45,078 nucleotides of DNA from assembly GCF_001418005.1 (NCBI RefSeq), contig NZ_LIOL01000007.1:157735-202812 (forward strand). Reading direction: 5' to 3'. This document shows, in pieces, positions 29,634 through 44,873 of this stretch. Below the pieces are notes generated by a model, which searched no databases, had not been told where the DNA came from, and worked only from the letters and a program-made list of their open reading frames with translations. Each line of letters opens with the position of its first letter. The stretch's first letter is position 1. The position numbers and the translations under genes were made by a program. Source of the stretch: Chelatococcus sambhunathii. Its GTDB lineage: Bacteria > Pseudomonadota > Alphaproteobacteria > Rhizobiales > Beijerinckiaceae.

Positions 29634-31127
29634 TCAACCGGCTGAAGCCACCGCCGGCCGGTCCTCGCCCAAGGCGGCCGTCCTCGCCTCGGCGAAGACC
29701 GCGCCAATCCCGATGACGAGCGGCTGCCTTTCATCCCGCTCGGCCATGCGCGCCGGCAGGTCGGCGAGGCGGCAGCGGCTGAGCACCTCCTCCGGGCGGC
29801 CGAGCGCCTCGGCAATCGCCACGGGCGTATCCGCCGCCATGCGATGATCCATGAGCCGGGCCGCAATCTGCGCGGCCGTGCGGCCGCCCATGTAGAAGAC
29901 GGTGGTGGCGGAAGGATCGGCGATGGCGTGCCAGTCGACGTCCTCCGGCAGGCCGCCGTGGCGCGAATGGCCGGTGACGAAGCGGACGGACTTGGCGTGA
30001 TCGCGGTGCGTCAGCGACACGCCGAGCGCGGCGGCCATGGCGATGCCGGCGGTGATGCCGGGCACGACGTCGAAGGCGATGCCTTCCCGGCGCAAACTGT
30101 CGATCTCCTCCCCCGCCCGGCCGAAGATCATCGGGTCGCCGGACTTGAGGCGCACCACGTGCTTTCCGGCGCGGGCAAGCGTCAGCATCATGGCGTTGAT
30201 CTCGTCCTGCCTGCAGCTCGGCCGGCCGCCGCGCTTGCCGACGAGGATGCGCTTGGCCTCGCGGCGGGCGAGTTCCAGCACGTCCTCGGAGACGAGATCG
30301 TCGAAGAGGATGACGTCGGCCGCCTGCAGGGCGCGCACGGCCTTGATGGTCAGAAGCTCGGCATCGCCGGGGCCCGCACCGACGAAGGTGACGTGACCGC
30401 AGCCATGGCGTTCGCCCCGCGCGATGCGGCCCGCCTCGGCCTCCAGCGCGCCGGCGTCGTCGCCTCCGGGTGCCGCGCGGAAGGCACGGTCGACGAAGGC
30501 CTCCCAGAAGGCGCGGCGCCGGGCGCCGGGGCCGAGGCGCGCCATCACGCGCTCGCGCATGTCCGCGGCAAGGCGCGCCCAGTCGGCGAGCCAGGCGGGC
30601 AGCAGCGCCTCGATGCGCCGGCGCACGGCCTGCCCCAGCACGGGTGCGGCGCCGCTTGTCGAGATACCGACGACAAGCGGGGAGCGGTTGACGATGGTGC
30701 CGAACTGGAAGGTGCAGAAGGCCGGCTTGTCGATGACGTTGCACGGCACGCCGGCCCCGAGCGAGGCAGCCCGGAAGGCGGCCGCCTCCGCGTCCCCCTC
30801 CGCGTCGGCGACGGCGACCGCGGCGCCGGAGAAGGCCGCCGCCTCCCAACGGGCGTCGTGGTGGACAAGCCGTCCAGGCAGGTCCGCCGTGGCGAGAAGG
30901 CGAGAGAACTCCCCGCTCAGCTCTTCGCGCGGAGCATAGACATGCACCTCGGCGCCGGCGGCGACCAGCAGCTCCGTCTTCCAGGCCGCAGCGTCGCCGC
31001 CGCCAGCGACGATCGCGCGCTTGCCGGCGAGGTCGAGGAAGACCGGCAGGACGCTGAGCGGTGCGATCCGCGCGGGAGCGCGCTCGCCCGGTGCCCGCTC
31101 ACTCGGCTGCCTGGAGACGATGCGCAT
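29634..31127 (-). CDS. cysG: Siroheme synthase CysG (trifunctional)
   Basis: The 497-aa enzyme makes siroheme from uroporphyrinogen III. Residues ~20-220 form the precorrin-2 dehydrogenase/ferrochelatase: [44 protein letters not shown]. From about residue 240 comes the SAM-dependent methyltransferase: [52 protein letters not shown] and VTGHSRHG. It starts inside the end of nasA (29-bp overlap) and is the last gene of the narK-nirBD-nasA-cysG unit, where it supplies siroheme to NirB. Length is slightly above E. coli CysG (457 aa) because of an Arg/Pro-rich N-terminus. Confidence 0.96.
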
Positions 31128-33771
31128 GGATGATGCTCCTGATCTCCGCGCGGCAAGAGCCGCAATTGGTGCCCGCTAGCAGGGCATCGCCCACGGCCTC
31201 CACCGTGTGGCAGCCGGCGACGACGGCGCCCGCGATCTGCCTCACGCCGACGCCGAAGCACGAGCAGACGATGGCCCCCTTGTCCTCACCGCCCTTGCCC
31301 GGCCGGCCGGCGAGAACGGCGAGGCGCGCCCGCTGGTCGGCATGGGCCTGCGACAGCTGCTCGACGACCCAGTCGCGCGGCACGGCGACCGGCTCGGCTG
31401 CGAGATAAAGCGCGCCGATGAGGCGCTCGCCGACGAAGCGCGCAAAACGTCGGCGGGCGGCGACCGCATCCTGGAAGGACAGGGTGTCGGCATCAGGTAC
31501 CCCGGGCAGGATGGCGTCCGCCACCGCCGGCCAGTCCGCCACAGCGTTGGCGAAGGCGAGTTCAACGCGCCAGCCCCCTTCGCAGCGGGCGATGGCCCAG
31601 TAATCGGCGGCAATGCGCTTGGGCTTCCCGGTGAGCACGGCGAAGCCGTAGGCCGCGGCGGTGAAGCGTGCGATGCGGACGGCGACGTGCTTCAGCGCCG
31701 GCTGGCCGGAGGTCGAATCGATTATGGGCGGCACGAGGCGATCAACACGGCCGTCGGCGGCGAACTGGTCGGTCCAGTGCATGGGCACGAAGATCGAGCC
31801 CTCGCGCTGGCGGCTCGTCAGCAGCGCCCTGACGACGATGGCGCCGCGGGCAGAGGTGACGCGCACGAGATCGGCATCGGCAATGCCGTATGTCGCCGCA
31901 TCGGTAGGGTGGATCTCGACGAAGGGCTCGGCGAGATGCTGCGAGAGGCGCTGGCTCTTGCCGGTTCGCGTCATCGTGTGCCACTGGTCGCGCACGCGGC
32001 CGGTGTTGAGCACGAGGGGGAAGCCTTCGCTCGTCCGCGCGGGCGCCATCGTGGTGACGGGCACGAGCCGGGCCTTGCGATCCGGCGTGAAGAAGCCGCC
32101 CTCGGCGAAGAAACGGATGTCATCGGCCGGCGTCTCGCCGGCCCGCGCCGGCCACTGGAACGGCGCGAGCGCATCGAACCCGGCGGCATCGATGCCGGCA
32201 TGGGCGCCGATGTCGAAGTCGCGCGCGCCATGGTTCTCGAAGGCGGAGAGCGCCGCGTGCTCGGCGAAGATCTCGGCCGGCGAGGCATAGGGAAAGGCCT
32301 CGGCAAAACCCATGCGGCGTGCCACTTCCGTGACGATCCACCAGTCGGGCTTCGCCTCCCCCGGCAGCGGCAGGAACGGGCGCTGGCGCGACATGCGGCG
32401 CTCGGAATTGGTCACCGTGCCGTCCTTCTCGCCCCAGGCGGCGGCCGGCAGCTTCACATGGGCGTGGCGCAACGTGTCGGTTTCGCCGACCACGTCGGAA
32501 ACGACGACAAAGGGGCAGGCCCGGATCGCGGTTTCGACCATGTCACCGTCCGGCATGGAATCGACCGGGTTGGTGGCCATGATCCACAGCGCCTTGATGC
32601 GCCCGTCAGCGACGGCGCGGAACATGTCGACGGCCTTGAGGCCCGGCGCAGAGGTGATGACCGGCGCCCTCCAGAAGCGCTGCACACGCTCGCGATCGGC
32701 CGCATTGTCGATGTCCATATGGGCCGCCAGCATGTTGGCGAGCCCGCCGACCTCACGCCCGCCCATGGCGTTGGGCTGGCCGGTCACGGAGAAGGGCCCC
32801 ATGCCGGGCCGGCCGATGCGGCCGGTGGCGAGGTGGCAGTTGATGATGGCGCTCACCTTGTCGGTGCCAACCGACGACTGGTTGACGCCCTGGCTGTAGA
32901 CGGTGACGACCTTCTCCGTCGCCGCGAAGAGCCGGTAGAATTCCGCGATGCTCGCCCGGTCGAGGCCCGTCTCGGCGGCGATGCCGTCCATGTCGAGGCG
33001 CCAGGCGGCGGCCAGCGCTTCGGCGAAGCCGGTCGTGTGTTCGGCGATGTAGTTCTCGTCGAGCGCACCCGCCTCGGCGAGATGGGCGAGAAGACCGTTG
33101 AAGAGCGCGACATCGCCGTCGGGCGCAATGGCGAGGTGCTGGTCGGCGATATCGGCCGTCATGGTGCGGCGCGGATCGACGACAATGACCTTCATCTCAG
33201 GCCGCTCGGCCTTGGCGGCGGCGAGGCGCTGGTACAGCACCGGGTGGCACCAGGCGAGGTTGGAGCCGACGAGGACGACGAGGTCGGCAAGCTCGAGGTC
33301 CCGGTAGCTGCCCGGCACCGTGTCGGCGCCGAAGGCGCGGCGGTGGCCCGCGACCGAGGAGGCCATGCACAGGCGCGAGTTGGTGTCGATGTTGGCCGTG
33401 CCGATGAAGCCCTTCATCAGCTTGTTGACGACGTAGTAATCCTCGTTCAGGAGCTGGCCCGAGACGTAGAAGGCGACGGAATCCGGTCCGTGCTCGGCGA
33501 TGGTGCGCGAGAAGGTCTCGGCCACCCGGTCGAGCGCCTCGTCCCACCCGGCCCTGCGGCCGTCGATTTCGGGAAAGAGCAGGCGGCCTTCGAGGTCGAC
33601 GGTCTCGGCAAGCGCCGAACCCTTGGAGCACAGCCGGCCGAAATTGGCGGGGTGGTCGGGATCGCCGCGGACGGCAAGGGTACCGTCCGCACCGACCGTG
33701 GCGAGGATGCCGCAGCCCACCCCGCAATAGGGGCAGGTCGTCTTCGTGATGGTCGGGACGGTTTCCTCCAT
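31099..33771 (-). CDS. nasA: Assimilatory nitrate reductase large subunit NasA
   Basis: The 890-aa cytoplasmic enzyme reduces nitrate to nitrite. It begins MEETVPTITKTTCPYCGVGC, giving the N-terminal [4Fe-4S] ligands CPYCGVGC and a later Cys in FGRLCSKGSALAET. The Mo-ligand Cys is in NSRLCMASSVAGHRRAFG. Bis-MGD motifs include GSNLAWCHPVLYQRL, VYSQGVNQSSVGTDK and TGRIGRPGMGPFSVTGQPNA-MGGREVGG. The C-terminus carries a BFD-type [2Fe-2S] domain, CSCFGVGVRQIAGAV and GTNCGSCRAEI. It has no Tat signal, as expected. It lies 11 bp after nirD; the longer frame through nirD is not used. Confidence 0.96.
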   Translation of the reverse strand: MEETVPTITKTTCPYCGVGCGILATVGADGTLAVRGDPDHPANFGRLCSKGSALAETVDLEGRLLFPEIDGRRAGWDEALDRVAETFSRTIAEHGPDSVAFYVSGQLLNEDYYVVNKLMKGFIGTANIDTNSRLCMASSVAGHRRAFGADTVPGSYRDLELADLVVLVGSNLAWCHPVLYQRLAAAKAERPEMKVIVVDPRRTMTADIADQHLAIAPDGDVALFNGLLAHLAEAGALDENYIAEHTTGFAEALAAAWRLDMDGIAAETGLDRASIAEFYRLFAATEKVVTVYSQGVNQSSVGTDKVSAIINCHLATGRIGRPGMGPFSVTGQPNAMGGREVGGLANMLAAHMDIDNAADRERVQRFWRAPVITSAPGLKAVDMFRAVADGRIKALWIMATNPVDSMPDGDMVETAIRACPFVVVSDVVGETDTLRHAHVKLPAAAWGEKDGTVTNSERRMSRQRPFLPLPGEAKPDWWIVTEVARRMGFAEAFPYASPAEIFAEHAALSAFENHGARDFDIGAHAGIDAAGFDALAPFQWPARAGETPADDIRFFAEGGFFTPDRKARLVPVTTMAPARTSEGFPLVLNTGRVRDQWHTMTRTGKSQRLSQHLAEPFVEIHPTDAATYGIADADLVRVTSARGAIVVRALLTSRQREGSIFVPMHWTDQFAADGRVDRLVPPIIDSTSGQPALKHVAVRIARFTAAAYGFAVLTGKPKRIAADYWAIARCEGGWRVELAFANAVADWPAVADAILPGVPDADTLSFQDAVAARRRFARFVGERLIGALYLAAEPVAVPRDWVVEQLSQAHADQRARLAVLAGRPGKGGEDKGAIVCSCFGVGVRQIAGAVVAGCHTVEAVGDALLAGTNCGSCRAEIRSIIHAHRLQAAE

Positions 33772-33782: not shown

Positions 33783-34133
33783 CTATTCGGCCGCGATGCG
33801 GGCGGAGGCCGCCGCCAGGATGGCCGAAGCGTCCATCAGGATGCGCTCGCCGTCGCGCTTCAGCGGGAAGGTCCGCACGGCGCCCTCGTCGGCGCCCTGA
33901 GCGAGGCCGGTCTCGAGCGAAAATACCCAGTTGTGCAGCGGGCAGGTGACCTGCGCCCCGTGGACGATGCCCTGGCTCAGGGGGCCGCCCTTGTGCGGAC
34001 ACCGATCCTCGATGGCATAGACCTCGTCCGCCGCCGTGCGGAAGACCGCGATGCGGCCGATCGGCGTATCGACGCAGCGCGCGCCGCGCCGCGGAATGTC
34101 GGACAGCCGGCCGATTTCAACCCAGTCGCTCAT
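33783..34133 (-). CDS. nirD: Nitrite reductase small subunit NirD (Rieske type)
   Basis: The 116-aa subunit begins MSDWVEIGRLSDIPRRGARC and contains the Rieske [2Fe-2S] ligands in CPHKGGPLSQG and CPLHNWVFSLETG. Some NirD proteins, including that of E. coli, lack these residues; here both pairs (Cys-His) are present, so it should carry a cluster. It partners with NirB in assimilatory NADH-nitrite reductase in the cytoplasm. GGAGTGAAAGG precedes the ATG. It is separated from nirB by 6 bp. Confidence 0.95.
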   Translation of the reverse strand: MSDWVEIGRLSDIPRRGARCVDTPIGRIAVFRTAADEVYAIEDRCPHKGGPLSQGIVHGAQVTCPLHNWVFSLETGLAQGADEGAVRTFPLKRDGERILMDASAILAAASARIAAE

Positions 34134-34139: not shown

Positions 34140-36587
34140 TCACTCCGCGGCTTCTGCAAAGCCGACGCTCGCCATCGGCTTGAACTCGTGCTTGTCCTTG
34201 CCGGAGACGCGCTCCGACCACGGGTCGACCTGGGCGAACTTCTGGGAGAAGACGAAACGGTCGAAATAGGCCTTGCGCCTGTCCTTGTCGTCGAGGATCT
34301 GGCGTCGGACCTCGTCGTAGCCGACGCGCTTGGCCCACTTGTAGATACGCTCGAGATAGCGCGCCTGCTCGCGGTACATCTGGGTGAGGGCCACGATGAC
34401 CTCGAGCGCCTCGTCCTCGGTGGCGACGAGGCCGAGCTTCTCGGTGCCCTTGATGTCGAGCCCTGCGGCGCCGGCGAAGTGGATCTCGAAGCCTGAGTCG
34501 ACGCAGATGACGCCGACGTCCTTGCAGGTTGCCTCGGCGCAATTCCTCGGGCAGCCGGAGACGGCCATCTTGACCTTGGCCGGCGTCCACGAGCCCCACA
34601 TGAACTTCTCGATGCGGATGCCGAGACCGGTCGAATCCTGCGTGCCGAAGCGGCACCAGTCGGAGCCGACGCAGGTCTTCACCGTCCTCAGGCCCTTGGC
34701 ATAGGCGTGGCCGGAGACGAAGCCGGCCTTGCCGAGCTCGGCCCAGACCGCCGGCAGGTCTTCCTTCCGCACTCCCAGCATGTCGATGCGCTGGCCGCCG
34801 GTGACCTTCACCGCCGGGATGTTGAACTTTTCCACCACATCGGCGATGGCCCTGAGCTCCGCGGCATTGGTCACGCCGCCCCACATGCGCGGCACGACCG
34901 AATAGGTGCCGTCCTTCTGGATGTTGGCGTGGACGCGCTCGTTGATGAAGCGCGACTGATAGTCGTCGGCATATTCATCCGGCCAGTCGCAGACGAGATA
35001 GTAGTTGAGCGCCGGCCGGCACTTGGCGCAGCCGCAGGAGGTCTTCCATTCGAGCTCCTGCATCACGGCGGGGATGGTCTTGAGCGCTTTCGCCTTGATG
35101 AGGCGGCGCACGTCGTCATGACCGAGATCGGTGCAGGTGCACATGGGCTGCACGGCGGCCGGATTGTAGCTGTCGCCGAGCGTCAGCTTCATCACCTGCT
35201 CGACGAGGCCGGTGCAGGAGCCGCAGGAGGCGGAGGCCTTGGTGTGGGCGCGGACGTCGTCGAGCGACGTCAGGCCCTTGCTGGTGATCGCCGAGACGAT
35301 CTTGCCCTTGCACACGCCGTTGCAGCCGCAGATCTCCGCATCATCCGGCAAGGCTGCAACGGCCGCCGTAGGGTCCAGCGGAGACCCTCCCTGGTAGGCC
35401 TGGCCGAAGATGAGCGTCTCGCGCATCTCGGCGATGTCCGTCCCCTTGCGCAGCATGTCGAAGAACCACGCCCCGTCGGACGTTTCACCATACATCACTG
35501 CGCCGATGATGCGGTTCTGCTTCAGGACGAGGCGCTTGTAGACGCCGGCCGAGGCGTCGCGCAGCACGATCTCCTCGCGGTCGTCGCCGTCCGCGAAGTC
35601 GCCGGCCGAATAGAGGTTGATGCCGGTGACCTTGAGCTGTGTCGCCGTCTCGACGGGGCGGAACGCGGCATCCTCCTTGACCAGCGTCTTGGCGACGACG
35701 CGGGCCATGTCATACAGCGGTGCGACGAGGCCGTAGCAGACGCCCTCATGCTCGACACATTCGCCGACAGCGAGGATGTCCGGGTCCGAGGTGACCATCT
35801 GGTCGCTGACAACGATGCCCCGCTCCACATGGAGGCCGGCATCGACGGCGATGCGCGTCTCGGGACGTATGCCGACGGCCATGACCACAATGTCGGCGGG
35901 GTAGACGGTTCCGTCCTCCAGAAGCACGGCCTCCACTTTCTCCTCACCAAGGATCGCCTTGGTCTGCGCCTTGACGTGGACCTTGATGCCGCGACCCTCC
36001 AGTTCCTTCTTCAGGAGATAGCCGGCGGCGGGGTCGAGCTGCCGCTCCATGAGATGGCCCATGAGGTGCAGCACCGTGACCTCCATGCCGCGCAGCCTGA
36101 GCGCCGCTGCAGCCTCAAGGCCGAGCAGGCCGCCGCCGATGACGACCGCCCTGGCGCCGGGCTTGCGCGCGGCCTCCACCATGGCGTTGACGTCGTCGAG
36201 GTCGCGGAAGGCCATGACGCCGGGCAGATCCTTGCCGGCCACGGGAATGATGAAGGGCGCCGAGCCGGTGGCGATGAGCAGCTTGTCGTAAGGCGTCTCG
36301 CCGCCCTTGGAGACGACGACCTTGCGCTTGCGGTCGATCTTCGTGACCGTCTCGCCGAAGCGGCAGGTGACGCCGTTCGCGGCATACCAGGCGGCGTCGT
36401 GAGTGACGATGTCGCCGTAGGTCTTCTCTCCCGCCAGAACGGGCGAGAGCATGATGCGGTTGTAGTTGCCGCGCGGCTCGGCGCCGAACAGCGTGACGTC
36501 GAAGGCTTCGGGAGCTGCTTCGAAGAGATGTTCCAGCGCACGGCCCGAGGCCATGCCGGCGCCGACGACGACGAGTTTCTGGGTCAT
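34140..36587 (-). CDS. nirB: Nitrite reductase large subunit NirB
   Basis: The 815-aa enzyme reduces nitrite to ammonium with NAD(P)H. It starts MTQKLVVVGAGMASGRALEH, the FAD-binding Rossmann motif, with a second NAD site at AVVIGGGLLGLEAAAALRLR. BFD-type [2Fe-2S] segments follow near CGCNGVCKGKIVSAI and CGSCTGLVEQVM. The sulfite/nitrite reductase C-terminal half has CVGSDWCRFGTQDSTG and SGCPRNCAEATCKDVG, binding siroheme and [4Fe-4S]. GGATTGACGGAC precedes the ATG at 36587; an in-frame ATG at 36608 overlaps the narK stop and is an alternative start. It is co-transcribed with narK, nirD, nasA and cysG. Confidence 0.96.
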   Translation of the reverse strand: MTQKLVVVGAGMASGRALEHLFEAAPEAFDVTLFGAEPRGNYNRIMLSPVLAGEKTYGDIVTHDAAWYAANGVTCRFGETVTKIDRKRKVVVSKGGETPYDKLLIATGSAPFIIPVAGKDLPGVMAFRDLDDVNAMVEAARKPGARAVVIGGGLLGLEAAAALRLRGMEVTVLHLMGHLMERQLDPAAGYLLKKELEGRGIKVHVKAQTKAILGEEKVEAVLLEDGTVYPADIVVMAVGIRPETRIAVDAGLHVERGIVVSDQMVTSDPDILAVGECVEHEGVCYGLVAPLYDMARVVAKTLVKEDAAFRPVETATQLKVTGINLYSAGDFADGDDREEIVLRDASAGVYKRLVLKQNRIIGAVMYGETSDGAWFFDMLRKGTDIAEMRETLIFGQAYQGGSPLDPTAAVAALPDDAEICGCNGVCKGKIVSAITSKGLTSLDDVRAHTKASASCGSCTGLVEQVMKLTLGDSYNPAAVQPMCTCTDLGHDDVRRLIKAKALKTIPAVMQELEWKTSCGCAKCRPALNYYLVCDWPDEYADDYQSRFINERVHANIQKDGTYSVVPRMWGGVTNAAELRAIADVVEKFNIPAVKVTGGQRIDMLGVRKEDLPAVWAELGKAGFVSGHAYAKGLRTVKTCVGSDWCRFGTQDSTGLGIRIEKFMWGSWTPAKVKMAVSGCPRNCAEATCKDVGVICVDSGFEIHFAGAAGLDIKGTEKLGLVATEDEALEVIVALTQMYREQARYLERIYKWAKRVGYDEVRRQILDDKDRRKAYFDRFVFSQKFAQVDPWSERVSGKDKHEFKPMASVGFAEAAE

Positions 36588-36604
36588 GTCCGTCAATCCG
36601 TTGT

Positions 36605-37897
36605 TCATTGGGCGGCGTAGCCGAGGCCGCCGGCGGCGCGGCGTTCCATGCGGCGGATGGCAACGTGCATCCACACGAAGGAGACGGCGACGATGGCGAA
36701 GAGCAGCATGAAGCAGCTCGACCACAGGCCGGTGAGATCATTGAGCGCGCCGAAGGCGATCGGCAGGACGAAGCCGCCGAGCCCGCCGATCATGCCGACG
36801 AGACCGCCGACCGCGCCGACGTTCTGCGGGTAGTAGACCGGGATGTGCTTGTAGACCGCCGCCTTGCCGAGGCTCATGACGAAGCCGAGGACGAAGGCGA
36901 CGGCGATGAAGAGCACGGGCCCGACCTCGACATGGAGCGCGACCGGCCCGTTGATGCCGCGCAGCACGTAGTCGCCCGTCGGCAGCGACAGGACGAGCGT
37001 GGCGAGCGCCGAGACGGCGAAGGTGCGGTACATGACGGCGCGGGCGCCGATGCGGTCGGACAGGGCGCCGCCATAGGCGCGGAAGATGCTGGCTGGGATC
37101 GAATAAGCGGCGCCGACGATGCCGGCCGTCTTGATGTCGAAGCCGTAGACGCCGATGAGGTAGCGCGGCAGCCACAGGGCGAGCGCGACGAAGGCGCCGA
37201 AGACGAAGAAGTAGTAGAGGGCGAAGCGCCACACCTGCACGTTCTTCAGCGGCGCGAACTCCGACCAGAAGCTCTTCGGGGCAGGGGCGAGGCCGGCGCG
37301 GCGCGCCTTGATGACGGGATCGTCCTCGGTGGTGAACCAGAAGACGAGTGCCATGACGACGAGCACCGCCGCCCAGATGAGCGCCACCGCCTGCCAGCCC
37401 CAGGCGATGAGGATGAGGGGCGCGACGAACTTGGTGACCGCGGCGCCGACATTGCCGACGCCGAAGATGCCGAGCGCCGTGCCCTGCCGCTCCGCCGGGT
37501 AGAAACGCGCCACATAGGCGACACCGACTGCGAAAGCTCCACTCGCGAGGCCGACGCCCAGTGCCGCGGCCAGCATCTGCGGATAGGTCTGGGCGAAGGC
37601 AAGGAGGACGGTGGCGATGGCCGCCGCCAGCATGGTGGCGGTGTAGACGAGGCGGCCGCCGTAGCGGTCCGTCCATACGCCGAGCGCCACGCGCACAAGC
37701 GAGCCGGTGAGGATGGGCGTGCCCACGAGCAGCCCGAACTGGGTTTCGGAGAGGCCGAGCTCGTCCTTGATGCGCACGGCGATGATGGAAAAGATCGTCC
37801 ACACCGCAAAGCAGATGGTGAAGGCGATGGTGGACATGGCGAGAGCCCGCGTCGCTTCGTCCTTGCCGGGCGCAGCTTGGTGGGGTGCGGTCATCAT
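36605..37897 (-). CDS. narK: MFS nitrate/nitrite transporter NarK/NasA family
   Basis: The 430-aa, twelve-helix transporter begins MMTAPHQAAPGKDEATRALA and has the nitrate/nitrite porter features: SETQFGLLVGTPILTGSLVR, RVALGVWTDRYGGR, and the nitrate signature GIFGVGNVGAAVTKFVAPLI with the paired GLVGMIGGLGGFVLPIAFGA in the second half. It should import nitrate or exchange it for nitrite. It is the first gene of the narK-nirB-nirD-nasA-cysG unit, preceded by a leader with a conditional terminator and a sigma-54 promoter. The second ATG at 37894 has better spacing from GGAG and may be the true start. Confidence 0.94.
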   Translation of the reverse strand: MMTAPHQAAPGKDEATRALAMSTIAFTICFAVWTIFSIIAVRIKDELGLSETQFGLLVGTPILTGSLVRVALGVWTDRYGGRLVYTATMLAAAIATVLLAFAQTYPQMLAAALGVGLASGAFAVGVAYVARFYPAERQGTALGIFGVGNVGAAVTKFVAPLILIAWGWQAVALIWAAVLVVMALVFWFTTEDDPVIKARRAGLAPAPKSFWSEFAPLKNVQVWRFALYYFFVFGAFVALALWLPRYLIGVYGFDIKTAGIVGAAYSIPASIFRAYGGALSDRIGARAVMYRTFAVSALATLVLSLPTGDYVLRGINGPVALHVEVGPVLFIAVAFVLGFVMSLGKAAVYKHIPVYYPQNVGAVGGLVGMIGGLGGFVLPIAFGALNDLTGLWSSCFMLLFAIVAVSFVWMHVAIRRMERRAAGGLGYAAQ

Positions 37898-37940
37898 CGG
37901 CTCCGTTGGCGGCTCGCGGCCGCGATGGGAAAAGCAAAAC

Positions 37941-37982
37941 AAAAAAGCCGCCGGCCGGGGCCGCACGCACCTCCTCCGGCGG
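37941..37982 (-). terminator. Conditional terminator in the narK leader
   Basis: On the minus strand CCGCCGG (37982-37976) pairs perfectly with CCGGCGG (37954-37948), followed by CTTTTTTG. It lies between the hexaloop hairpins and the narK start. Confidence 0.85.
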
Positions 37983-38040
37983 AAGCGCGGGTTCACCCGA
38001 TCGGCAGCTTTGCCTGCGGCGCCCGCCCTTGGACGCCCTA
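37941..38040 (-). promoter_or_regulatory. narK leader: NasT-type dual hexaloop antitermination RNA
   Basis: On the minus strand P1 is GGCGTCC-AAGGGC-GGGCGCC (38037 to 38018) and P2 is GGC-AAAGCT-GCC (38014 to 38003). Both loops are six nucleotides with A at position 1 and G at position 4, the known ANTAR-protein recognition pattern, with three bases between hairpins. A terminator follows at 37941-37982. The encoded ANTAR protein NasT (43198-43800) should bind P1-P2 and allow readthrough into narK when nitrate is present. Confidence 0.85.
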
Positions 38041-38070
38041 TGTCGGCCGTTACGGCCTTCGCCCTCTTTC

Positions 38071-38088
38071 TTGCACGAGGCGTGCCAA
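38071..38088 (-). promoter_or_regulatory. Sigma-54 promoter of the narK-nirBD-nasA-cysG unit
   Basis: TTGGCACGCCTCGTGCA on the minus strand fits YTGGCACGN4TTGCW with one change, with exactly 10 nt between GG (-24) and GC (-12). Transcription should begin near 38061, about 24 nt before P1. Confidence 0.8.
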
Positions 38089-38207
38089 CTCAACGGAAGG
38101 AGGCGAATTTTTAGTTGTTACAATGCGTTGGAGCGCCTTGCCGGCGCTTTGGCAGCCTCTGCCCTGCCCTGCCGAATTGCTGAGCGGCGCAGCAATCCGC
38201 CCATTTC

Positions 38208-38222
38208 TTGTGCAGCGCACAA
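38208..38222. promoter_or_regulatory. Conserved 15-bp palindrome upstream of narK promoter
   Basis: TTGTGCAGCGCACAA is an inverted repeat (TTGTGC/GCACAA) lying 122 bp upstream of the -24 GG. The same 15 bases occur at the same distance from the nrtA promoter. It is a candidate activator site for the sigma-54 promoter. Confidence 0.6.
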
Positions 38223-38268
38223 CGCGTCCGGCCCGGCGCGTGCCTTGCTACAAGGAGCGCGATTACTT

Positions 38269-38304
38269 CCCTCCCCCTCGCGGGGAGGGGTTGGGGGTGG
38301 GGGG
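38269..38304. repeat. Dispersed C-rich/G-rich palindrome, copy 3
   Basis: CCCTCCCCCTCGCGGGGAGG followed by GGTTGGGGGTGGGGGG; the CCTCCCC/GGGGAGG arms form a stable stem. It lies about 100 bp after the nrtD stop and may terminate the nrtABD transcript. Related elements are at 10301 and 29553. Confidence 0.55.
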
Positions 38305-38395
38305 CAGGACGCAAGGACACGGCCTCCTGCATGCTGACCACCCAAACCCCTACCCTCCCTTGCAGAAGGCGGAGATTGGAGACGTCCCGCTGCTC

Positions 38396-39193
38396 CTACG
38401 CCGCCGCCTCCACGAAGCGATGGCGCTCGTAGAGGAACTTCAGCACCGCTTCGCGGCAGCGCAGGTAGGTGCGGTCGGAGGCGAGCGCCAGCCGCTCGCG
38501 CGGGCGCGGCAGCGGCACGGTGAGCACCTCGCCGATGGTGGCGGCCGGCCCGTTGGTCATCATCACGATGCGATCGGAGAGCAGCACGGCCTCGTCAACA
38601 TCGTGCGTGATCATGATCATCGTGTTGCCGAGCCGGGCGTGGATCTCCATCATCTGGTCCTGCAGATGGGCGCGGGTCAGCGCGTCGAGCGCGCCGAAGG
38701 GCTCGTCGAGCAGCAGGATCTTCGGCTCCATGGCGAGCGCCCGGGCGATGCCCACGCGCTGCTTCATGCCGCCGGAGATCTCGCCCGGCCGCTTGTCGGC
38801 CGCATGGGCCATCTGCACGAGGTCGAGGTTCTCCATGATCCACGCGTGCCGCTCGGCCTTGCTCTTCCGGCCGCGGAAGACCTTCGTGACGGCGAGCGCC
38901 ACGTTGTCGTAGACGCTGAGCCACGGCAGCAGCGAGTGGTTCTGGAAGACGACGGCGCGGTCCGGCCCCGGCGCGTTGACCTCCCTGTTCTCCAGAAGCA
39001 CGGCGCCGGAGGAGACCGGCGTCAGGCCGGCGACGAGGTTGAGCAGGGTCGACTTGCCGCAGCCGGAATGGCCGATGATGGAGACGAACTCGCCTTCGTC
39101 GATGGTGAGGCGGATGTCGCGCAGGACCTCGCTCACCTTGCCGCCGCGCGAGAAGCTCTTGCCGATGTAGTCGAGCTTGAGATAGCCGCTCAT
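38396..39193 (-). CDS. nrtD: Nitrate ABC transporter ATP-binding protein
   Basis: The 265-aa ATPase has Walker A GHSGCGKST, the Q-loop VVFQNHSLLPWLSVYDNVAL, the signature ISGGMKQRVGIARA, Walker B ILLLDEPFGALD and the switch THDVDEAVLL. It belongs to the NrtCD/SsuB/TauB group and is assigned to nitrate by its neighbours nrtA and nrtB and by the NasT leader of the operon. Unlike cyanobacterial NrtC it has no fused binding-protein domain. GGGAGAAG precedes the ATG at 39193. It ends the nrtABD unit; the narK leader lies downstream. Confidence 0.94.
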   Translation of the reverse strand: MSGYLKLDYIGKSFSRGGKVSEVLRDIRLTIDEGEFVSIIGHSGCGKSTLLNLVAGLTPVSSGAVLLENREVNAPGPDRAVVFQNHSLLPWLSVYDNVALAVTKVFRGRKSKAERHAWIMENLDLVQMAHAADKRPGEISGGMKQRVGIARALAMEPKILLLDEPFGALDALTRAHLQDQMMEIHARLGNTMIMITHDVDEAVLLSDRIVMMTNGPAATIGEVLTVPLPRPRERLALASDRTYLRCREAVLKFLYERHRFVEAAA

Positions 39194-39205
39194 GGGTCTT
39201 CTCCC

Positions 39206-40102
39206 TCAGCTGGCCGCGGGGCCGCGGGTGACGATGACGCCGACGAAACCGACCAGCCGGTCGAGCAGGAAGCCGACGAGGCCGATGTAGACGAGCGCCA
39301 CGATGATGTCGGTGAGGCGCGAGGAATTCCATGCATCCCAGATGAAGAAGCCGATGCCGACGCCGCCGGTCAGCATCTCGGCCGCGACGATGGCGAGCCA
39401 AGAGAGGCCGACGCCGATCCGGAGCCCCGAGAAGATGTAGGGCGCGGCCGCCGGCACCATGATCTTGAAGAAGAACTCCACCTGGTTGAGGCGCAGCACG
39501 CGAGCGACGTTGCGATAGTCCTCGGGGATGTTGCGCACGCCGGCGGCGGTGTTGATGATCACCGGCCAGATGGCCGTGATGAAGATGACGAAGATCGCCG
39601 ATGGCCGCGAATCCATGAAAGCGGCGAGCGAGATCGGCAGCCAAGCAAGCGGCGGCACCGTGCGCAGTACCTGGAAGATCGGATCGAGCCCGCGCATCAT
39701 CCACACCGACTGTCCGACGAGCGCGCCGAGCAGCACGCCCGCCACCGCGGCGAGGCCGAAGCCGATGGCGACCCGCTCCAGCGAGACGATGACGCGCCAG
39801 CCGAGGCCGATGTCCTGCGTGCCGTTGACGAAGAACGGGTCCAGGATCAGGTCGCTGCTCTCGTTCCAGATCTCGCTCGGCGGCGGCAGCGACGACCCGG
39901 GGCCCGAGAAGGCCACCTGCCACACGGCAAGGAGAACGAGGAGGACGACGAGGGGCGGTACGATGGATTGTGCGAGCCGCGTGGCAAGAGCGATGATATC
40001 GAACCTGCGGGGCACGGCGGGCGGAAGCGTCACCACCGTCGCCTTCTGGCGCTCGGCGGGAAATGCGGCGATCGCATCGCCCTTGATGGACGGCAATGTC
40101 AT
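39206..40102 (-). CDS. nrtB: Nitrate ABC transporter permease NrtB
   Basis: The 298-aa permease has a cytoplasmic N-terminus (MTLPSIKGDAIAAFPAERQK), then about six membrane segments. It shows the NrtB/SsuC-type features RVAIGFGLAAVAGVLLGALV, RTVPPLAWLPISLAAFMDSR and the loop NIPEDYRNVARVLRLNQVEF for ATPase contact, then GVGLSWLAIVAAEMLTGGVG. The start at 40102 is preceded by GAGG; the longer frame runs back into nrtA. It lies 53 bp after nrtA and 12 bp before nrtD. Confidence 0.94.
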   Translation of the reverse strand: MTLPSIKGDAIAAFPAERQKATVVTLPPAVPRRFDIIALATRLAQSIVPPLVVLLVLLAVWQVAFSGPGSSLPPPSEIWNESSDLILDPFFVNGTQDIGLGWRVIVSLERVAIGFGLAAVAGVLLGALVGQSVWMMRGLDPIFQVLRTVPPLAWLPISLAAFMDSRPSAIFVIFITAIWPVIINTAAGVRNIPEDYRNVARVLRLNQVEFFFKIMVPAAAPYIFSGLRIGVGLSWLAIVAAEMLTGGVGIGFFIWDAWNSSRLTDIIVALVYIGLVGFLLDRLVGFVGVIVTRGPAAS

Positions 40103-40155
40103 GGGGCTTGCCCTCGTTTTGGCGGAAGGGGCCGGCGCGGGCCGCCGGCCGGCTT

Positions 40156-41466
40156 TCACGAGACGGCCTTGATGGCGAGGCTGTCGAGATAGGCGGAGGG
40201 GTTCTCGGGATCGAAGGTCTTGCCGTCGAAGAACTTTTCCACGCCGCGACTGTCGCCGGCCGGCAGGTCGGCGAGGCCGAGGCCCTTGGCGGCCGCGAGC
40301 CACAGGTCCGAGCGATTGGTGGCGTCGACCATGGCCTTGACGTCGACCGACGCGGGGAACTTGCCCCAGCGGATGTTCTCGATCATGAACCAGGTGTCGA
40401 GGCTCTTCCAGGGATAGGACGTCTCGCCCTTCTCGCCCCAGAACTTCATGCGCAGGTCGGACCCGGCGACGGTGCGGCCGTTGCCGTAGTTGATGTCCCC
40501 CCTGATGCGGCCAACGATGTCCTTGACGGGCACGTTGTACCATTGCCGACGGCCGATGATCTCGGCCATCTCCTGCTTGTTCTCCTGTTTCTCGCACCAC
40601 TGCTGGGCTTCCATCACCGCCATCAGGATGGCAAGGGTCGCCTTGGGATGCTTGTCCACCCAGTCGGCGCGCATGCCGAGCACCTTTTCGGGGTGCCGGA
40701 ACCAGATCTCGCCCGTGGTCGCCGCGGTGAAGCCGATCTTCTGGTTGACGAGCTGCTCGTTCCACGGCTCGCCGACGCAGAAACAGTCCATGTTGCCCAC
40801 CTTCATGTTGGCCACCATCTGCGGCGGCGGCACGACGATGAGGTTGAGGTCCTTGTCCGGGTCGATGCCGCCGGCGGCGAGCCAGTAGCGGATCCACAGG
40901 TCGTGCGTGCCGCCGGGGAAGGTCATGGCGGCCGTCACGTCCTTGCCGGACGCCTTCTTCCTGGCGAAAGCCTCCTTCAAGGCGCCGGAATCGAGCTTCA
41001 CGCCCGTCTCGGCATATTCCTGCGCGACGGAGATGCCCTGACAGTCCTCGTTGAGGTTGAGGAGCGTGTACATCGGCAGCTTCTGGCCGTTCTGCATCAC
41101 GGCGCCGGAGGAATAGAGGTGGACCTTCGGCCTCAGGATGTGGCCGCCGTCGATGCCGCCTGCGCCGCCGCCGAGCGCCATGTTGTCGCGCGTCGCGCCC
41201 CAGGAGGCCTGTTTCTCGATGGCGACGTCCGGCACCTCGTATTTGGCGAAGAGGCCCTTCTCCTTGGCGATGATGAGCGGGGCGGAATCGGTGAGCGCAA
41301 TGTAGCCGAGGCGCGCGCCGGTGACCTCGGGACCCGAGCCGGCGGCATGGGCGCCGGCCGGCAGCAGCGCCTTGGCGGCGAGGAAGGTCGCGGTGGCGCC
41401 AGCCCCCTTCAGGAAGGCGCGGCGCCCGGGAGCCATGGAAAGGGTGGTCGTCTGCGTCCGTTTCAT
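40156..41466 (-). CDS. nrtA: Nitrate ABC transporter substrate-binding protein NrtA
   Basis: The 436-aa periplasmic protein starts MKRTQTTTLSMAPGRRAFLK with a Tat-type signal (GRRAFLKGAG). The mature protein is of the NrtA/CmpA family: VTGARLGYIALTDSAPLIIA, KQASWGATRDNMALGGGAGG-IDGGHIL, CFCVGEPWNEQLVNQKIGFT, and TSYPWKSLDTWFMIENIRWG. These residues form the nitrate/nitrite pocket in the family. GAGGGGG precedes the ATG at 41466. It heads nrtABD behind its own hexaloop leader and sigma-54 promoter. NasS, encoded upstream, is a cytoplasmic relative. Confidence 0.96.
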   Translation of the reverse strand: MKRTQTTTLSMAPGRRAFLKGAGATATFLAAKALLPAGAHAAGSGPEVTGARLGYIALTDSAPLIIAKEKGLFAKYEVPDVAIEKQASWGATRDNMALGGGAGGIDGGHILRPKVHLYSSGAVMQNGQKLPMYTLLNLNEDCQGISVAQEYAETGVKLDSGALKEAFARKKASGKDVTAAMTFPGGTHDLWIRYWLAAGGIDPDKDLNLIVVPPPQMVANMKVGNMDCFCVGEPWNEQLVNQKIGFTAATTGEIWFRHPEKVLGMRADWVDKHPKATLAILMAVMEAQQWCEKQENKQEMAEIIGRRQWYNVPVKDIVGRIRGDINYGNGRTVAGSDLRMKFWGEKGETSYPWKSLDTWFMIENIRWGKFPASVDVKAMVDATNRSDLWLAAAKGLGLADLPAGDSRGVEKFFDGKTFDPENPSAYLDSLAIKAVS

Positions 41467-41516: not shown

Positions 41517-41555
41517 AAAAAAGCCGCCGGCCAGGAACAGGCGCCCTCCTCCCGG
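41517..41555 (-). terminator. Conditional terminator in the nrtA leader
   Basis: On the minus strand TCCGG-GAGGAG pairs imperfectly with TTCCTGG-CCGG, followed by CGGCTTTTTTG. The 3' half (GGCCGGCGGCTTTTTTG) is identical to the narK leader terminator, while the 5' arm differs. Confidence 0.7.
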
Positions 41556-41612
41556 ACGCGCGCTTTCCCTGATCGGCAGCCTTGCCAGCAGCGCCCGACG
41601 CTGGACGCCCTA
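41517..41612 (-). promoter_or_regulatory. nrtA leader: NasT-type dual hexaloop antitermination RNA
   Basis: On the minus strand P1 is GGCGTCC-AGCGTC-GGGCGCT (41609 to 41590) and P2 is GGC-AAGGCT-GCC (41586 to 41575). Both hexaloops have A1 and G4, and the stems differ from the narK copy in a way that keeps pairing (final C changed to U opposite G). Three bases separate them, then the terminator follows. It should be the second NasT target. Confidence 0.85.
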
Positions 41613-41642
41613 TGTGGGCCCTATGGCCTCACGGAAAGGCAA

Positions 41643-41660
41643 CGCAGGAAGCGTGCCAAG
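41643..41660 (-). promoter_or_regulatory. Sigma-54 promoter of the nrtABD unit
   Basis: CTTGGCACGCTTCCTGCG on the minus strand fits the -24/-12 consensus with GG and GC separated by 10 nt. Transcription should start near 41632, about 23 nt before P1. Confidence 0.78.
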
Positions 41661-41778
41661 TTCCCAATGCGCCAGAATTACGTTGTTTCACAATAGATTA
41701 TGTCTCGGAAGCGCGAACAGAGACCTGTGGACAAGCGACCAAGGCTTGATCAGATCGCGGCAGCATACCGCACCTTTA

Positions 41779-41793
41779 TTGTGCAGCGCACAA
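41779..41793. promoter_or_regulatory. Conserved 15-bp palindrome upstream of nrtA promoter
   Basis: TTGTGCAGCGCACAA, identical to 38208-38222 and again exactly 122 bp from the -24 GG. It is a candidate enhancer-type activator site. Confidence 0.6.
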
Positions 41794-41962: not shown

Positions 41963-43201
41963 TCACACCGCCTCGGCCGCCCCCTGCGCTGCGATATAGG
42001 CATCGAGATCGTCAGGATCGAACAGGCTGCCGTCGAAAAAACCGTCGGGGCCGAGGATCAGGCTGGCGCCGGCCGAGCCGACGGCGGTTGGCCGCGTCAG
42101 CGCGCCCTCCACCTTGGCGTTGGCGCCGGGCAGCGCGACGCCGAGCGGCTTCAGCGCGGCGCGGTAGAGATCGGGCCGGTAGGTCTCGCGCGCAAGGGCG
42201 GCATTCGCCGGCGTGTGAAGCACCTGCCCCCAGCGCGCCATCTGGCTGTAGAACCACAGCGCGTGGCTCTTCCACGGGAAGGTGGCACCCCGCGCCTGCG
42301 GCACGAAGAAGTCCTCGACCTCCATTGCCGCATCGGGTCCGATGGCGAGGTGCCCCGTGAGCGCCGGCATCAGCCATTCGGCCGGCCGGCCGACATAGGC
42401 GGGTGCGGACAGAATGGCGGCGAGTTCCTGCCCGTTGGCCGGATCGGCGCACCACTCGGCCGCGCGATAGAGCGCGCGCAGCAGCGCCGCCAGCGCCTCG
42501 GGCGCGGCCTCGGCCCAGCGCGCGTCGGCGGCGAGCACCTTTTCGGGGCTGGAGCGCCAGATCTTCGCCTTCACGGTCGCGATACGACCCGTGCCCAGCA
42601 TCACGGCCGCCGTGTTCCACGGCTCGCCGACGCAATAGCCGTCGACGACGCCAGAGCCGAGCGCATCCGCCATCAAGGGCGGCGGCAGGATGACGATCTC
42701 CACCGACCGGTCGGGATCGATGCCGCAGGCGGCGAGCCAGTAACGCAGGTCGTAGTTGTGGCCGGAGTGCGGGTGGACGACGGCGAAGCGCAGCGGCGGC
42801 AGGCCTTGCCGGCCCCGCGCCACGACCACGGCGCGCAGCGCCTTCCCCGCCGCGCGCGGGCTGAGGTCCAGCACGGCGCCGTGCCCGGCCATCGCCTGCC
42901 ACAGGGCATTGGAGACGGTGACGGCATTGCCGCCGAGGCCGAGCGCCATCGGCACCACGGAGCGCGCCGCGAGCGGCGTCAGGCCGAGGTTGCAGGCGAT
43001 CGGCATCGGCGCGAGCACATGCGCGACCTGGAAATGGCCGACCGCGAGCCTGTCGCGGATATTGGCCCAGGAGGTCTCGCGCACCAGCTTGAGCGCGACG
43101 CCCTCGGCCTCGGCGAAGCCCTTCTCGTGCGCCGCCACGACGAGCGCACTGTCGAGCAGCGGCATGAAACCGGCGGCGATCTCGTGCGGCGCCTCGCTCA
43201 T
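41963..43201 (-). CDS. nasS: Nitrate sensor NasS (NrtA-like, cytoplasmic)
   Basis: The 412-aa protein is related to NrtA but starts directly with the mature fold (MSEAPHEIAAGFMPLLDSAL) and has no signal peptide, as expected for the cytoplasmic sensor. Shared pocket motifs are GYCVGEPWNTAAVMLGTGRI and GATFPWKSHALWFYSQMARW-G. In the studied systems NasS holds NasT inactive and releases it when nitrate or nitrite binds. Its ATG overlaps the nasT stop by 4 bp (ATGA), giving coupled production of the two proteins. It lies upstream of nrtABD but is separated by its own downstream palindrome. Confidence 0.93.
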   Translation of the reverse strand: MSEAPHEIAAGFMPLLDSALVVAAHEKGFAEAEGVALKLVRETSWANIRDRLAVGHFQVAHVLAPMPIACNLGLTPLAARSVVPMALGLGGNAVTVSNALWQAMAGHGAVLDLSPRAAGKALRAVVVARGRQGLPPLRFAVVHPHSGHNYDLRYWLAACGIDPDRSVEIVILPPPLMADALGSGVVDGYCVGEPWNTAAVMLGTGRIATVKAKIWRSSPEKVLAADARWAEAAPEALAALLRALYRAAEWCADPANGQELAAILSAPAYVGRPAEWLMPALTGHLAIGPDAAMEVEDFFVPQARGATFPWKSHALWFYSQMARWGQVLHTPANAALARETYRPDLYRAALKPLGVALPGANAKVEGALTRPTAVGSAGASLILGPDGFFDGSLFDPDDLDAYIAAQGAAEAV

Positions 43202-43800
43202 CCCTCGTCTCCCGGTTCGAGCAGCCCCGCGGCGGTGACGAGGCTCTGGGCGATCTCGGCGATCTTGCGGTTCTGGTTCATCGCCGTCTTGCGCAGGAGC
43301 GCATAGGCCGCCTCCTCCGTCATGCCGCGCGACTTCATGAGGATGCCCTTGGCGCGCTCGACCAGCTTTCGGTCGGCGAGTTCGCTGCGCGCTTCCTCCA
43401 GCTCCCGCGACAGGCGGGCAAAGGCGTTGAAGCGGCTGATGGCCATGTCGAGGATGGGCTTGACCCGCTCCTGCTTCAGCCCGTCGACGACATAGGCCGA
43501 TACGCCGGCCTCGACCGCCGCCTCGATGGAGGCCTGGTCGGAGCGGTCGACGAACATGGCGATGGGGCGCTTCACGGCCCGCGAGAGCTGGAACATGTTC
43601 TCCAGCATGTCGCGGTTGGGGTTCTCGAGGTCGATGACGATGACGTCGGGGTTGATCTCGGCGATGCGGCGGGCAATGCCGGTCACGTCGTGCACCAGGG
43701 TGACGTTGTCATGGCCGGCCTCGCGCAGCCCCGCCTCGATGATGGAGGCGCGAATGCGGTTTTCATCGATCACGAGAATGGCGAGCGACGCACGGGGCAT
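43198..43800 (-). CDS. nasT: ANTAR-domain antiterminator NasT
   Basis: The 200-aa protein begins MPRASLAILVIDENRIRASI, a receiver-like domain with NPDVIVIDLENPNRDMLENM, followed by a coiled linker (RLSRELEEARSELADRKLVE) and the ANTAR domain (RAKGILMKSRGMTEEAAYAL-LRKTAMNQNRKI). ANTAR domains bind paired hexaloop hairpins and prevent terminator formation, and two such RNAs lie in this window at 37941 and 41517. The ATG at 43800 is chosen by homology of the receiver start; the ribosome binding site is weak and an ATG at 43842 is an alternative. It precedes nasS in one operon. Confidence 0.94.
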   Translation of the reverse strand: MPRASLAILVIDENRIRASIIEAGLREAGHDNVTLVHDVTGIARRIAEINPDVIVIDLENPNRDMLENMFQLSRAVKRPIAMFVDRSDQASIEAAVEAGVSAYVVDGLKQERVKPILDMAISRFNAFARLSRELEEARSELADRKLVERAKGILMKSRGMTEEAAYALLRKTAMNQNRKIAEIAQSLVTAAGLLEPGDEG

Positions 43801-43981: not shown

Positions 43982-44620
43982 ATGTACCAGCCGCCCCATT
44001 TCCGCGAGGAGAGGCTCGAGGTCCAGCACGCGCTGATCCGCGCCCATCCCCTCGGCCTGCTGATCTCCTCGGGCGAGGATGGCCCCCTCGCCAATCCGGT
44101 GCCGTTCCTGCTCGATGCGGCAGCGGCCCCGAAGGGCGTGGTCAGGGCGCATCTGGCCCGCGCCAACCGGCAATGGCAGGCGCTCGCGGCCGGTGAGCCC
44201 GCCCTCGCCGTCTTCCAGGGCGTCGATACCTATGTGACGCCCTCCTGGTACGAGACGAAAAAGGAGACAGGCAAGGTCGTGCCGACGTGGAACTATGCGA
44301 TCGTGCAGGTGCGCGGCCCGGTGCGCGTCATCGAAGACCGGGAATGGCTGCGGCGCCAGATCACGGCGCTGACCGCGCAGCACGAGGAGGGCCGCACGCA
44401 ACCCTGGGCCGTGACGGACGCGCCGGAGGATTTCGTGGCGGCGCAGCTCAAGGGCATCGTCGGCATCGAGATGACGATCGAGAGCATCGAGGGCAAGTGG
44501 AAGGTGAGCCAGAACCGCCCCGCCCCCGACCGCATCGGCGTCGCCGAAGGCCTCGCCGCCGAGACCGACCCGCAGGCTGCCCGGATGGAGCGGCTGGTGC
44601 GAGACTATGGTGGGGTGTGA
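43982..44620 (+). CDS. PaiB-family FMN-binding regulator-like protein
   Basis: The 212-aa protein starts MYQPPHFREERLEVQHALIR and has PLGLLISSGEDGPLANPVPF, AHLARANRQWQALAAGEPAL, FQGVDTYVTPSWYETKKETG-KVVPTWNY and LKGIVGIEMTIESIEGKWK, all standard in the PaiB/FMN_bind_2 family. The family is named after B. subtilis PaiB, a negative regulator, but members bind FMN and many are probably enzymes. GGGAG lies 8 nt before the ATG. It is divergent from nasT with 181 bp between them; whether it has a role in nitrogen control is not evident. Confidence 0.93.
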   Translation: MYQPPHFREERLEVQHALIRAHPLGLLISSGEDGPLANPVPFLLDAAAAPKGVVRAHLARANRQWQALAAGEPALAVFQGVDTYVTPSWYETKKETGKVVPTWNYAIVQVRGPVRVIEDREWLRRQITALTAQHEEGRTQPWAVTDAPEDFVAAQLKGIVGIEMTIESIEGKWKVSQNRPAPDRIGVAEGLAAETDPQAARMERLVRDYGGV

Positions 44621-44671
44621 GGTGTGATGGCTGCCAGCGAATGAAGCACCATATGCTCCATTTCCCTCTAG

Positions 44672-44793
44672 ACCGTAAACCCATAAACGGCTCTGGGTTC
44701 CCTGACGGTGGCAATTGTGATTCAAGCTCCTTTTCGGGAGCTTTGCGAGATCGTGTCCATCCGCATCTGGCTACGCGGTTATGAGTCTACGGC
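44672..44793. mobile_element. 122-bp MITE derived from the adjacent IS5-family element
   Basis: The left 77 bp match the left end of the adjacent element (44798-44874) with two differences. The right 45 bp end in a sequence whose complement, GCCGTAGACTCATAACC, matches the left terminus GCCGTAAACCCATAAAC at 14 of 17 positions, giving terminal inverted repeats. CTAG lies on both sides (44668-44671 and 44794-44797), consistent with a YTAR target duplication. It is too short to encode a transposase. Confidence 0.7.
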
Positions 44794-44849
44794 CTAGGCC
44801 GTAAACCCATAAACGGCTCTGGGTTCCCTGACGGTGGCGATTGTGATTC

Positions 44850-44869
44850 AAGCTCCTTTTCGGGAGCTT
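44850..44869 (+). promoter_or_regulatory. Hairpin sequestering the transposase ribosome binding site
   Basis: AAGCTCC (44850-44856) pairs with GGAGCTT (44863-44869). GGGAG, the only ribosome binding site for the ATG at 44874, lies in the 3' arm. Such hairpins in IS elements reduce transposase translation from read-through transcripts. Confidence 0.55.
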
Positions 44870-44873
44870 TGCG

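Follow-up and report, generated by a model that had tools for sequence, protein, structure and literature searches.

Two paralogous leaders in a nitrate-assimilation cluster of Chelatococcus sambhunathii and their probable control by NasS/NasT antitermination

The stretch of DNA analyzed here, called the window throughout, comprises 45,078 nucleotides of Chelatococcus sambhunathii and carries a nitrate-assimilation cluster. According to the original prediction, the leader of narK holds a complete antitermination switch of the NasT type, which raises the question of how such a switch would be built and which genes it would serve. Our answer is that the narK leader is very probably a NasS/NasT-controlled ANTAR antitermination leader, of which the cluster holds a second, paralogous copy. 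The best reading is that of an ordinary NasS/NasT leader, of the kind already described for Pseudomonas and Paracoccus. Direct support comes from the anatomy of the leader, from the mutual exclusion of two of its helices on paper, from conservation and covariation, and from co-occurrence with nasT. As to completeness, the predicted hairpins and T-run were found in place, while the terminator had to be redrawn, and the second leader, the sigma54-type boxes, the palindromes and a 5' hairpin had been overlooked. Positions refer to the window, and features lie on the minus strand unless stated otherwise.

On this strand the genes follow in the order nasT, nasS, nitrate ABC transporter, narK, nirB, nirD-like, nasA and cysG, several of the start codons in the cluster being inferred. 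The first gene of the operon, narK (36605-37897, start inferred), encodes an MFS nitrate/nitrite transporter whose best NCBIfam hit, TIGR00886, lies below the cut-off. It is followed by nirB for the large subunit of nitrite reductase (34140-36608, start approximate; TIGR02374 above cut-off), by an ORF for a Rieske small subunit of 116 amino acids (33783-34133; PF00355 and PF13806 above cut-off), named nirD-like from its position, by a molybdopterin nitrate reductase gene of the nasA type (31099-33771, start approximate; best hits Fdh-alpha and NasC/NasA, below their cut-offs), and by cysG for siroheme synthase (29634-31127; NF007922 above cut-off). Residues 894-963 of the nitrate reductase ORF resemble a NifU-like C-terminal stretch (TIGR02000, below cut-off). 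The operon narK-nirB-nirD-nasA-cysG thus lies behind the leader as predicted, but these five genes do not delimit the regulon, since the second leader adds the nitrate ABC transporter (38396-41466; TIGR01183 and TIGR01184 above cut-off, NMT1_2 domain), with its binding protein at 40156-41466, a permease gene ending at 39206 and the ATPase at 38396-39193. Divergent from nasT, the plus strand carries a gene with a putative FMN-binding domain (43982-44620; PF04299), the product of which we take to be PaiB-like. The adjoining region 44668-45078 contains two of the ten genomic matches of an 81-base sequence, spaced by 126 bases, and a plus-strand frame that starts at 44874 and extends beyond the window has a match to PF13340, a putative transposase domain of the IS4/5 family.

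The proteins expected for NasT-type control are encoded upstream in the same cluster. The gene nasS (41963-43201), named from homology and position, encodes the nitrate-binding partner of NasT, with an NMT1_2 domain and kinship to the solved NrtA/CmpA/CmpC chains. NasT itself (43198-43800) combines a receiver-like with an ANTAR domain (PF03861, over cut-off), is 98% identical to NasT of Chelatococcus caeni, and is the single PF03861 match in the genome of 4.37 Mb. We aligned it with the EutV structures 6wsh and 6ww6. Among the 11 RNA-contacting EutV residues named in PMC8934654, eight are identical in NasT, two are conservatively changed and one is different, as read from the alignment by eye. 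The kept contact residues lend support to a binding of the leader RNA by NasT. The presence of nasS-nasT in the window, the single ANTAR protein and the co-occurrence of leaders and ANTAR genes across the order (see below) likewise speak for the NasT-type reading of the original prediction. A leader of the NasR/nasF type was rejected: it would go with a one-component NIT-ANTAR regulator, and the sole ANTAR protein of this genome has a receiver-like domain.

The narK leader contains the two hexaloop hairpins of the original prediction, with loops AAGGGC and AAAGCU and A and G at loop positions 1 and 4 (A1/G4), at coordinates that agree on the minus strand. The first, P1 (38018-38037), is GGCGUCC-AAGGGC-GGGCGCC with a stem of 7 bp; the second, P2 (38003-38014), is GGC-AAAGCU-GCC with a stem of 3 bp, deduced from fold and comparison, and would act as the antiterminator. 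They are separated by the three bases GCA. The T-run predicted ahead of narK is present as U6 at 37941-37946, 43 bases upstream of the narK ATG (37897). We scanned for the full anatomy, i.e., a P1 stem of at least 6 and a P2 stem of at least 3 pairs, A1/G4 loops, a T-run, and a terminator arm with at least 9 of 10 pairs to the P2 loop and 3' arm. Two sites emerged on the minus strand of the window, with loops at 38030 and 41602; there was none on the plus strand, nor any in 200 simulated first-order Markov strands, in which the dual hexaloop by itself occurs 0.445 times per strand. The leader observation is beyond chance.

The decisive point of the architecture is the terminator (37941-38011), supported by minimum free energy folding and covariation. 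In the fold of 37941-38040, the 5' arm AAAGCUGCCG-A-UCGGG (38011-37996) pairs with the 3' arm CCCGG-C-CGGCGGCUUU (37959-37944), which runs into the U-run, giving a helix of about 15 bp. This 5' arm is composed of the P2 loop, the P2 3' arm and AUCGGG, and therefore P2 and terminator exclude each other. It is through an overlap of this kind that an ANTAR leader can work as a switch, as described for eut (PMC3369931, PMC8934654). The terminator fold has an energy of -56.2 kcal/mol, compared with -46.1 kcal/mol for P1 plus P2. P2 loop and 3' arm match the terminator arm in 10 of 10 pairs in both leaders of the window, and in at least nine of ten positions in 76 of 89 leaders, a count that still contains rows in which P2 was picked wrongly by the automatic procedure (e.g., L101, L059, L116). 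For P2 we consequently rely on the covariation in 85 leaders and on the register analyses rather than on the 89-leader picks.

Each of the 15 terminator pairs is kept in 14 to 16 of 16 leaders, the two of the window among them. In the alignment of 85 leaders, again including these two, 96.0% of the cells are paired, compared with 33-54% after sliding and 82.7% after shuffling; with an alignment fitted to the model and leaders that share ancestry, the pairing figures and both controls lean towards the structure. Changes on both sides occur in 15 of 22 pairs (shuffled mean 10.2, and as high in 0 of 500 shuffles) and in 11 of the 15 terminator pairs. The most telling covariation is the joint change of position 3 of the P2 loop and its partner in the terminator arm, with AU in 59 leaders, CG in 12, GC in 8, GU in 2, UA in 1 and other combinations in 3 (n = 85).

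Two computations on the narK leader were less favorable. The fold check proposed by the original prediction, over a stretch of 176 nt, gave a z-score of -0.82 with 40 of 200 shuffles equally good, so the stretch folds no better than shuffled sequence, whereas that of the second leader does (z -3.94). When the RNA is folded only to the end of P2, the best fold of the narK leader shifts P2 to the register GCAG-GCAAAG-CUGC, while the second leader prefers the A1/G4 register. Comparison favors A1/G4: the outer P2 pair (48-59) is GC in 76, AU in 7 and GU in 1 of 84 lettered rows, the remaining one of the 85 leaders having a gap here, and the alternative pair 48-55 is broken in the seven rows with AU. 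At gathering score, Rfam, which may hold no ANTAR model, matched neither the window nor any of 20 loci carrying leaders or the L104 element described below; at E<=10 the region 37850-38420 gave 27 matches, all far under their gathering scores and none ANTAR-like.

The second, paralogous leader (41517-41612), referred to as the nrtA leader, precedes the nitrate ABC transporter genes and was recognized by alignment, RNA model and fold. P1 (41590-41609) has the loop AGCGUC and P2 (41574-41587) the loop AAGGCU, both A1/G4, with a linker of 2 bases; the terminator arms lie at 41568-41583 and 41520-41535, the U-run at 41517-41522. Here, too, the terminator fold is better than P1 plus P2 (-52.1 versus -43.8 kcal/mol). 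The two leaders share 80% identity, and each is the other's only significant relative in the genome: BLAST found the nrtA leader with E 8e-20 (next 0.07) and the RNA model with E 2e-13 (next 1.05), and neither method revealed any further significant NasT target genome-wide. The next forward model match (E 1.14), a sigma54-type unit without P2 and without G4, was rejected as a NasT leader. It corresponds to L104:1451-1567 (contig C15 of the same genome, about 49472-49588, plus strand), has the sigma54-type box TTGGCACGGTTGATGC upstream, and continues with two hairpins, GACCC..GGGTC and GCGCC-ACAACG-GGCGC, and then a strong terminator. Two further genomes of the genus contain similar DNA, although one of the two lacks an ANTAR gene, and the unit looks like a sigma54-dependent small RNA.

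Moving to higher taxonomic levels, we find that leaders keep company with nasT. Among four genomes of the genus, two carry both leaders, one has neither leader nor ANTAR gene, and one has an ANTAR gene with a weak leader match 1.3 kb downstream (E 0.64). At nasT loci, mostly from Mesorhizobium, at least one leader is present in 79 of 80 and two leaders in 23 of 80 (E<1e-3), the sole locus without a leader being situated on a contig of 5.4 kb; in all 102 nhmmer hits at nasT loci, a T-run comes after a dual A1/G4 hexaloop. Order-wide, 64 of 397 genomes contain a leader at E<=0.01 and 215 contain an ANTAR gene. The latter is present in 63 of the 64 leader-bearing genomes, G080 being the exception (hypergeometric 4e-18, not corrected for kinship). 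With a limit of 2.5 kb, in 58 of the 64 a leader follows an ANTAR gene on the same strand, at a distance of 224 to 1679 bases (median 1457.5), which leaves room for an intervening nasS. No leader was matched by model R1 in 152 of the 215 ANTAR-bearing genomes; either the model is too narrow, or the ANTAR proteins there act otherwise. A class-wide draw of 385 genomes gave nine matches besides the window's own, all marked as belonging to the same class.

Upstream of both leaders the promoter regions are alike. A sigma54-type box, TTGGCACG-N5-TGC, precedes them at near-equal distance, reading TTGGCACG-CCTCG-TGC before the narK leader (38073-38088) and TTGGCACG-CTTCC-TGC before the nrtA leader (41644-41659). 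The palindrome TTGTGC-GCT-GCACAA lies 120 bases above either box and forms part of a candidate activator site. At narK (38199-38222) the palindrome (38208-38222) runs into GCAC-N7-GGGC (38199-38213), at nrtA (41770-41793) the palindrome (41779-41793) is accompanied by GCAC-N7-GTGC (41770-41784). The motif GCAC-N7-GTGC, which we take to be the NtrC consensus, makes both sites NtrC-like, as GCACAATAAAGGTGC in the nrtA copy and, one base off, as GCACAAGAAATGGGC in the narK copy. A permissive pattern of the box matches 81 of 91 diverse leaders. In 100 box-bearing leaders (the window's two and 98 from nasT loci), GTGC-N3-GCAC occurs 129-134 bases above the box in 75 (shuffled mean 0.36), and GCAC-N7-GTGC 122-126 bases above it in 45 (shuffled 0.24). 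The layout fits the scheme of Pseudomonas nirBD and its leader NalA, where the start is driven by sigma54/NtrC and NasT acts in addition (PMC12830290).

This strong conservation of palindromes and boxes could also mean that NasT is inactive on the narK copy, that its terminator is a constitutive attenuator, and that control lies with NtrC/sigma54 initiation alone. Data from Bradyrhizobium diazoefficiens point the same way: most genes that go down in a nasT mutant have no clear hairpin, and narK, for which NasT hairpins are predicted, goes up under denitrifying conditions (PMC6759348). The loop of P1 tells otherwise. As the A1/G4 bases of P2 also lie in the terminator arm, P1 alone provides clean evidence of recognition by a protein. 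With hairpins picked blind to loop letters, position 4 of the P1 loop is G in 88 of 89 distinct leaders; 81 of the loops begin with A and 8 with G, and positions 2, 3, 5 and 6 vary; the set is biased towards A1/G4, the RNA model having been trained on 16 leaders that all show these bases. Neither the retained G4 in a hairpin outside the terminator nor the tracking of ANTAR genes in 63 of 64 genomes is expected without an ANTAR reader, and we therefore give constitutive attenuation only a slim chance.

Between sigma54 box and P1, nearly all leaders examined have an additional hairpin, P0, starting mostly 13-15 bases past the TGC (by eye). In the window it is GGCCG-UAA-CGGCC (38045-38057) for narK and GGCC-AUAG-GGCC (41617-41628) for nrtA, and the loops UAA and AUAG rule out a hexaloop with purine at position 1 and G4. 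Of 68 distinct segments that have a box and measure 28-50 bases, 66 show a P0 stem of at least 4 bp; 20 of the 68 fold better than their own shuffles at p<=0.05, where 3.4 are expected, and 48 do not. In 33 segments P0 is readable with a 6-base loop, if 4-base loops are included after one pair has been opened. Of these 33 loops, 14 begin with A, 12 of them with G4; 19 begin with a purine, and G4 is present in 16 of the 19, versus 2 of the 14 others (Fisher one-sided 8.7e-5, kinship uncorrected). Clear third hexaloops were seen in families f16 (L088, L123), f5 (L091), f32 (L120, L172), f118 (L136) and f172 (L137).

Other families show a pyrimidine motif instead. CCTCC is present in 15 of 22 leaders of family f6, 14 times in the P0 region, and at the apical part of the terminator in 5 of 8 leaders of family f42. 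The longer CUCCUCC stands in the P0 loop of L129, L151, L153, L156, L162 and L165 (f6) and in the terminator apical part of L154 and L158 (f42). Taking all 91 leaders together, 18 contain CTCCTCC versus 1.17 expected, while plain CCTCC is barely enriched (25 of 91 versus 18.2). No CCTCC was found in the three family f1 leaders examined (the window's two included), in 11 nasT-locus leaders or in L091. The apical parts of both window terminators (37970-37977 and 41545-41552) bear GGAGGAGG, complementary to the anti-Shine-Dalgarno motif of the other families, and GGAGGAG is found in 6 of 91 leaders. Loops with CCUCCUCCC are described as the anti-Shine-Dalgarno mark of the alpha-r14/NfeR1 small RNAs (PMC3927594, PMC10746234).

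P0 is the less ordinary part of the system, mostly outside the genome of the window, and in other lineages it presents a third purine1/G4 hexaloop or an anti-Shine-Dalgarno loop. Tentatively, and with more doubt than confidence, one may picture the NasT leaders of the order as three-hairpin elements, in which P0 was ancestrally a third purine1/G4 hexaloop that recruited NasT before P1 and P2; in some families P0, or else the terminator's apical loop, would now be an anti-Shine-Dalgarno loop, and the terminated leader would double as a trans-acting small RNA that signals nitrogen shortage in the absence of nitrate. Both Chelatococcus copies retain the P0 stem and have neither kind of loop. No third hairpin of NasT leaders was found in the titles and abstracts searched.

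A further reading would make the terminated leader the main product at this locus, a sigma54-dependent small RNA to which read-through is secondary. The sigma54-type box immediately before a compact terminated RNA, the anti-Shine-Dalgarno motif in loops of other families and the separate name of the Pseudomonas leader RNA, NalA (PMC12830290), would suit it. Yet both window leaders precede nitrate-assimilation genes, leaders elsewhere adjoin nasT, and CCTCC is lacking in the three f1 leaders mentioned above, so that we judge this reading very improbable. The terminator as originally drawn, a 7-bp stem CCGCCGG/CCGGCGG (37976-37982 with 37948-37954) independent of P2 and blocked by NasT in some other way, can safely be dismissed: it is pairable, likewise in the narK copy of Chelatococcus caeni, but at -45.9 kcal/mol together with P1 and P2 it is about 10 kcal/mol worse than the terminator overlapping P2, a 7-bp partner of the 3' arm exists in only 5 of 89 distinct leaders and is missing from 84, the overlapping helix is conserved with covariation, and three hairpins able to coexist make no switch.

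We return to the NasS/NasT-controlled leader, for which the following course of events is proposed. RNA polymerase would start at the sigma54-type promoter, presumably activated by NtrC under nitrogen shortage. Without nitrate, NasT would be held by NasS; the nascent RNA would make P1, and P2 loop and 3' arm would engage the GC-rich arm that precedes the U-run, leading to termination. With nitrate, NasS would free NasT, which would capture the A1/G4 hexaloops and stabilize P2, so that the 5' arm of the terminator becomes unavailable and polymerase may continue into narK-nirB-nirD-nasA-cysG; at the second copy, the same read-through would lead into the nitrate ABC transporter. NasT binding, the release of NasT by nitrate, activation by NtrC and read-through are taken over by analogy. 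For Paracoccus, PMC3795266 describes that nitrate dissociates NasS-NasT and that NasT binds the leader, and PMC5424462 that mutation of the second leader hairpin (HII, which may not correspond to P2) left activity relatively unaffected. This result and the Bradyrhizobium narK result call for caution against over-reading. That read-through occurs only upon release of NasT by NasS on nitrate, as originally proposed, is what we infer and no more, because the narK of B. diazoefficiens, with its predicted hairpins, rises in a nasT mutant. The short P2 stem of the narK leader (3 bp), with another register predicted to be preferred when the downstream arm is left out, also counts against the NasS/NasT reading.

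In Azotobacter vinelandii, NasS/NasT reportedly control the nas leader. The Chelatococcus locus resembles the Pseudomonas system, nasA of Paracoccus denitrificans and nos of B. diazoefficiens in having nasS-nasT and a leader with hairpins and terminator, here next to nitrate-assimilation genes. It differs from them by two paralogous leaders per cluster, one for the ABC transporter and one for narK-nirBD-nasA-cysG, and, as far as leaders are described in the literature sampled, by the conserved 5' hairpin P0. With eut of Enterococcus faecalis (PMC3369931, PMC8934654) it shares two A1/G4 hexaloops, a short linker (an extension by 20 nt abolishes antitermination by EutV; PMC8934654), P2 inside the terminator and a receiver-ANTAR protein; unlike EutV/EutW, which respond to ethanolamine via a kinase, the signal here would be nitrate through NasS, and the stems are GC-rich. 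In NasR/nasF of Klebsiella oxytoca (PMC5424462, PMC3369931), an ANTAR protein likewise antiterminates nas genes in response to nitrate; NasR senses nitrate by its own NIT domain, whereas sensing (NasS) and RNA binding (NasT) are split here.

An RNA family model could be started from the alignment of 85 leaders, Rfam being without a match for the leaders tried, and the redrawn terminator supplies exact positions for mutation. P0, which elsewhere is a third hexaloop or an anti-Shine-Dalgarno loop, extends the ANTAR model in a way that can be tested, and its anti-Shine-Dalgarno loops raise the possibility that an attenuated leader works as a small RNA. For the organism itself, a new leader pair is placed in a known circuit, and the layout of the locus reads as a two-step gate, with sigma54/NtrC for the start of transcription and NasS/NasT for its continuation.
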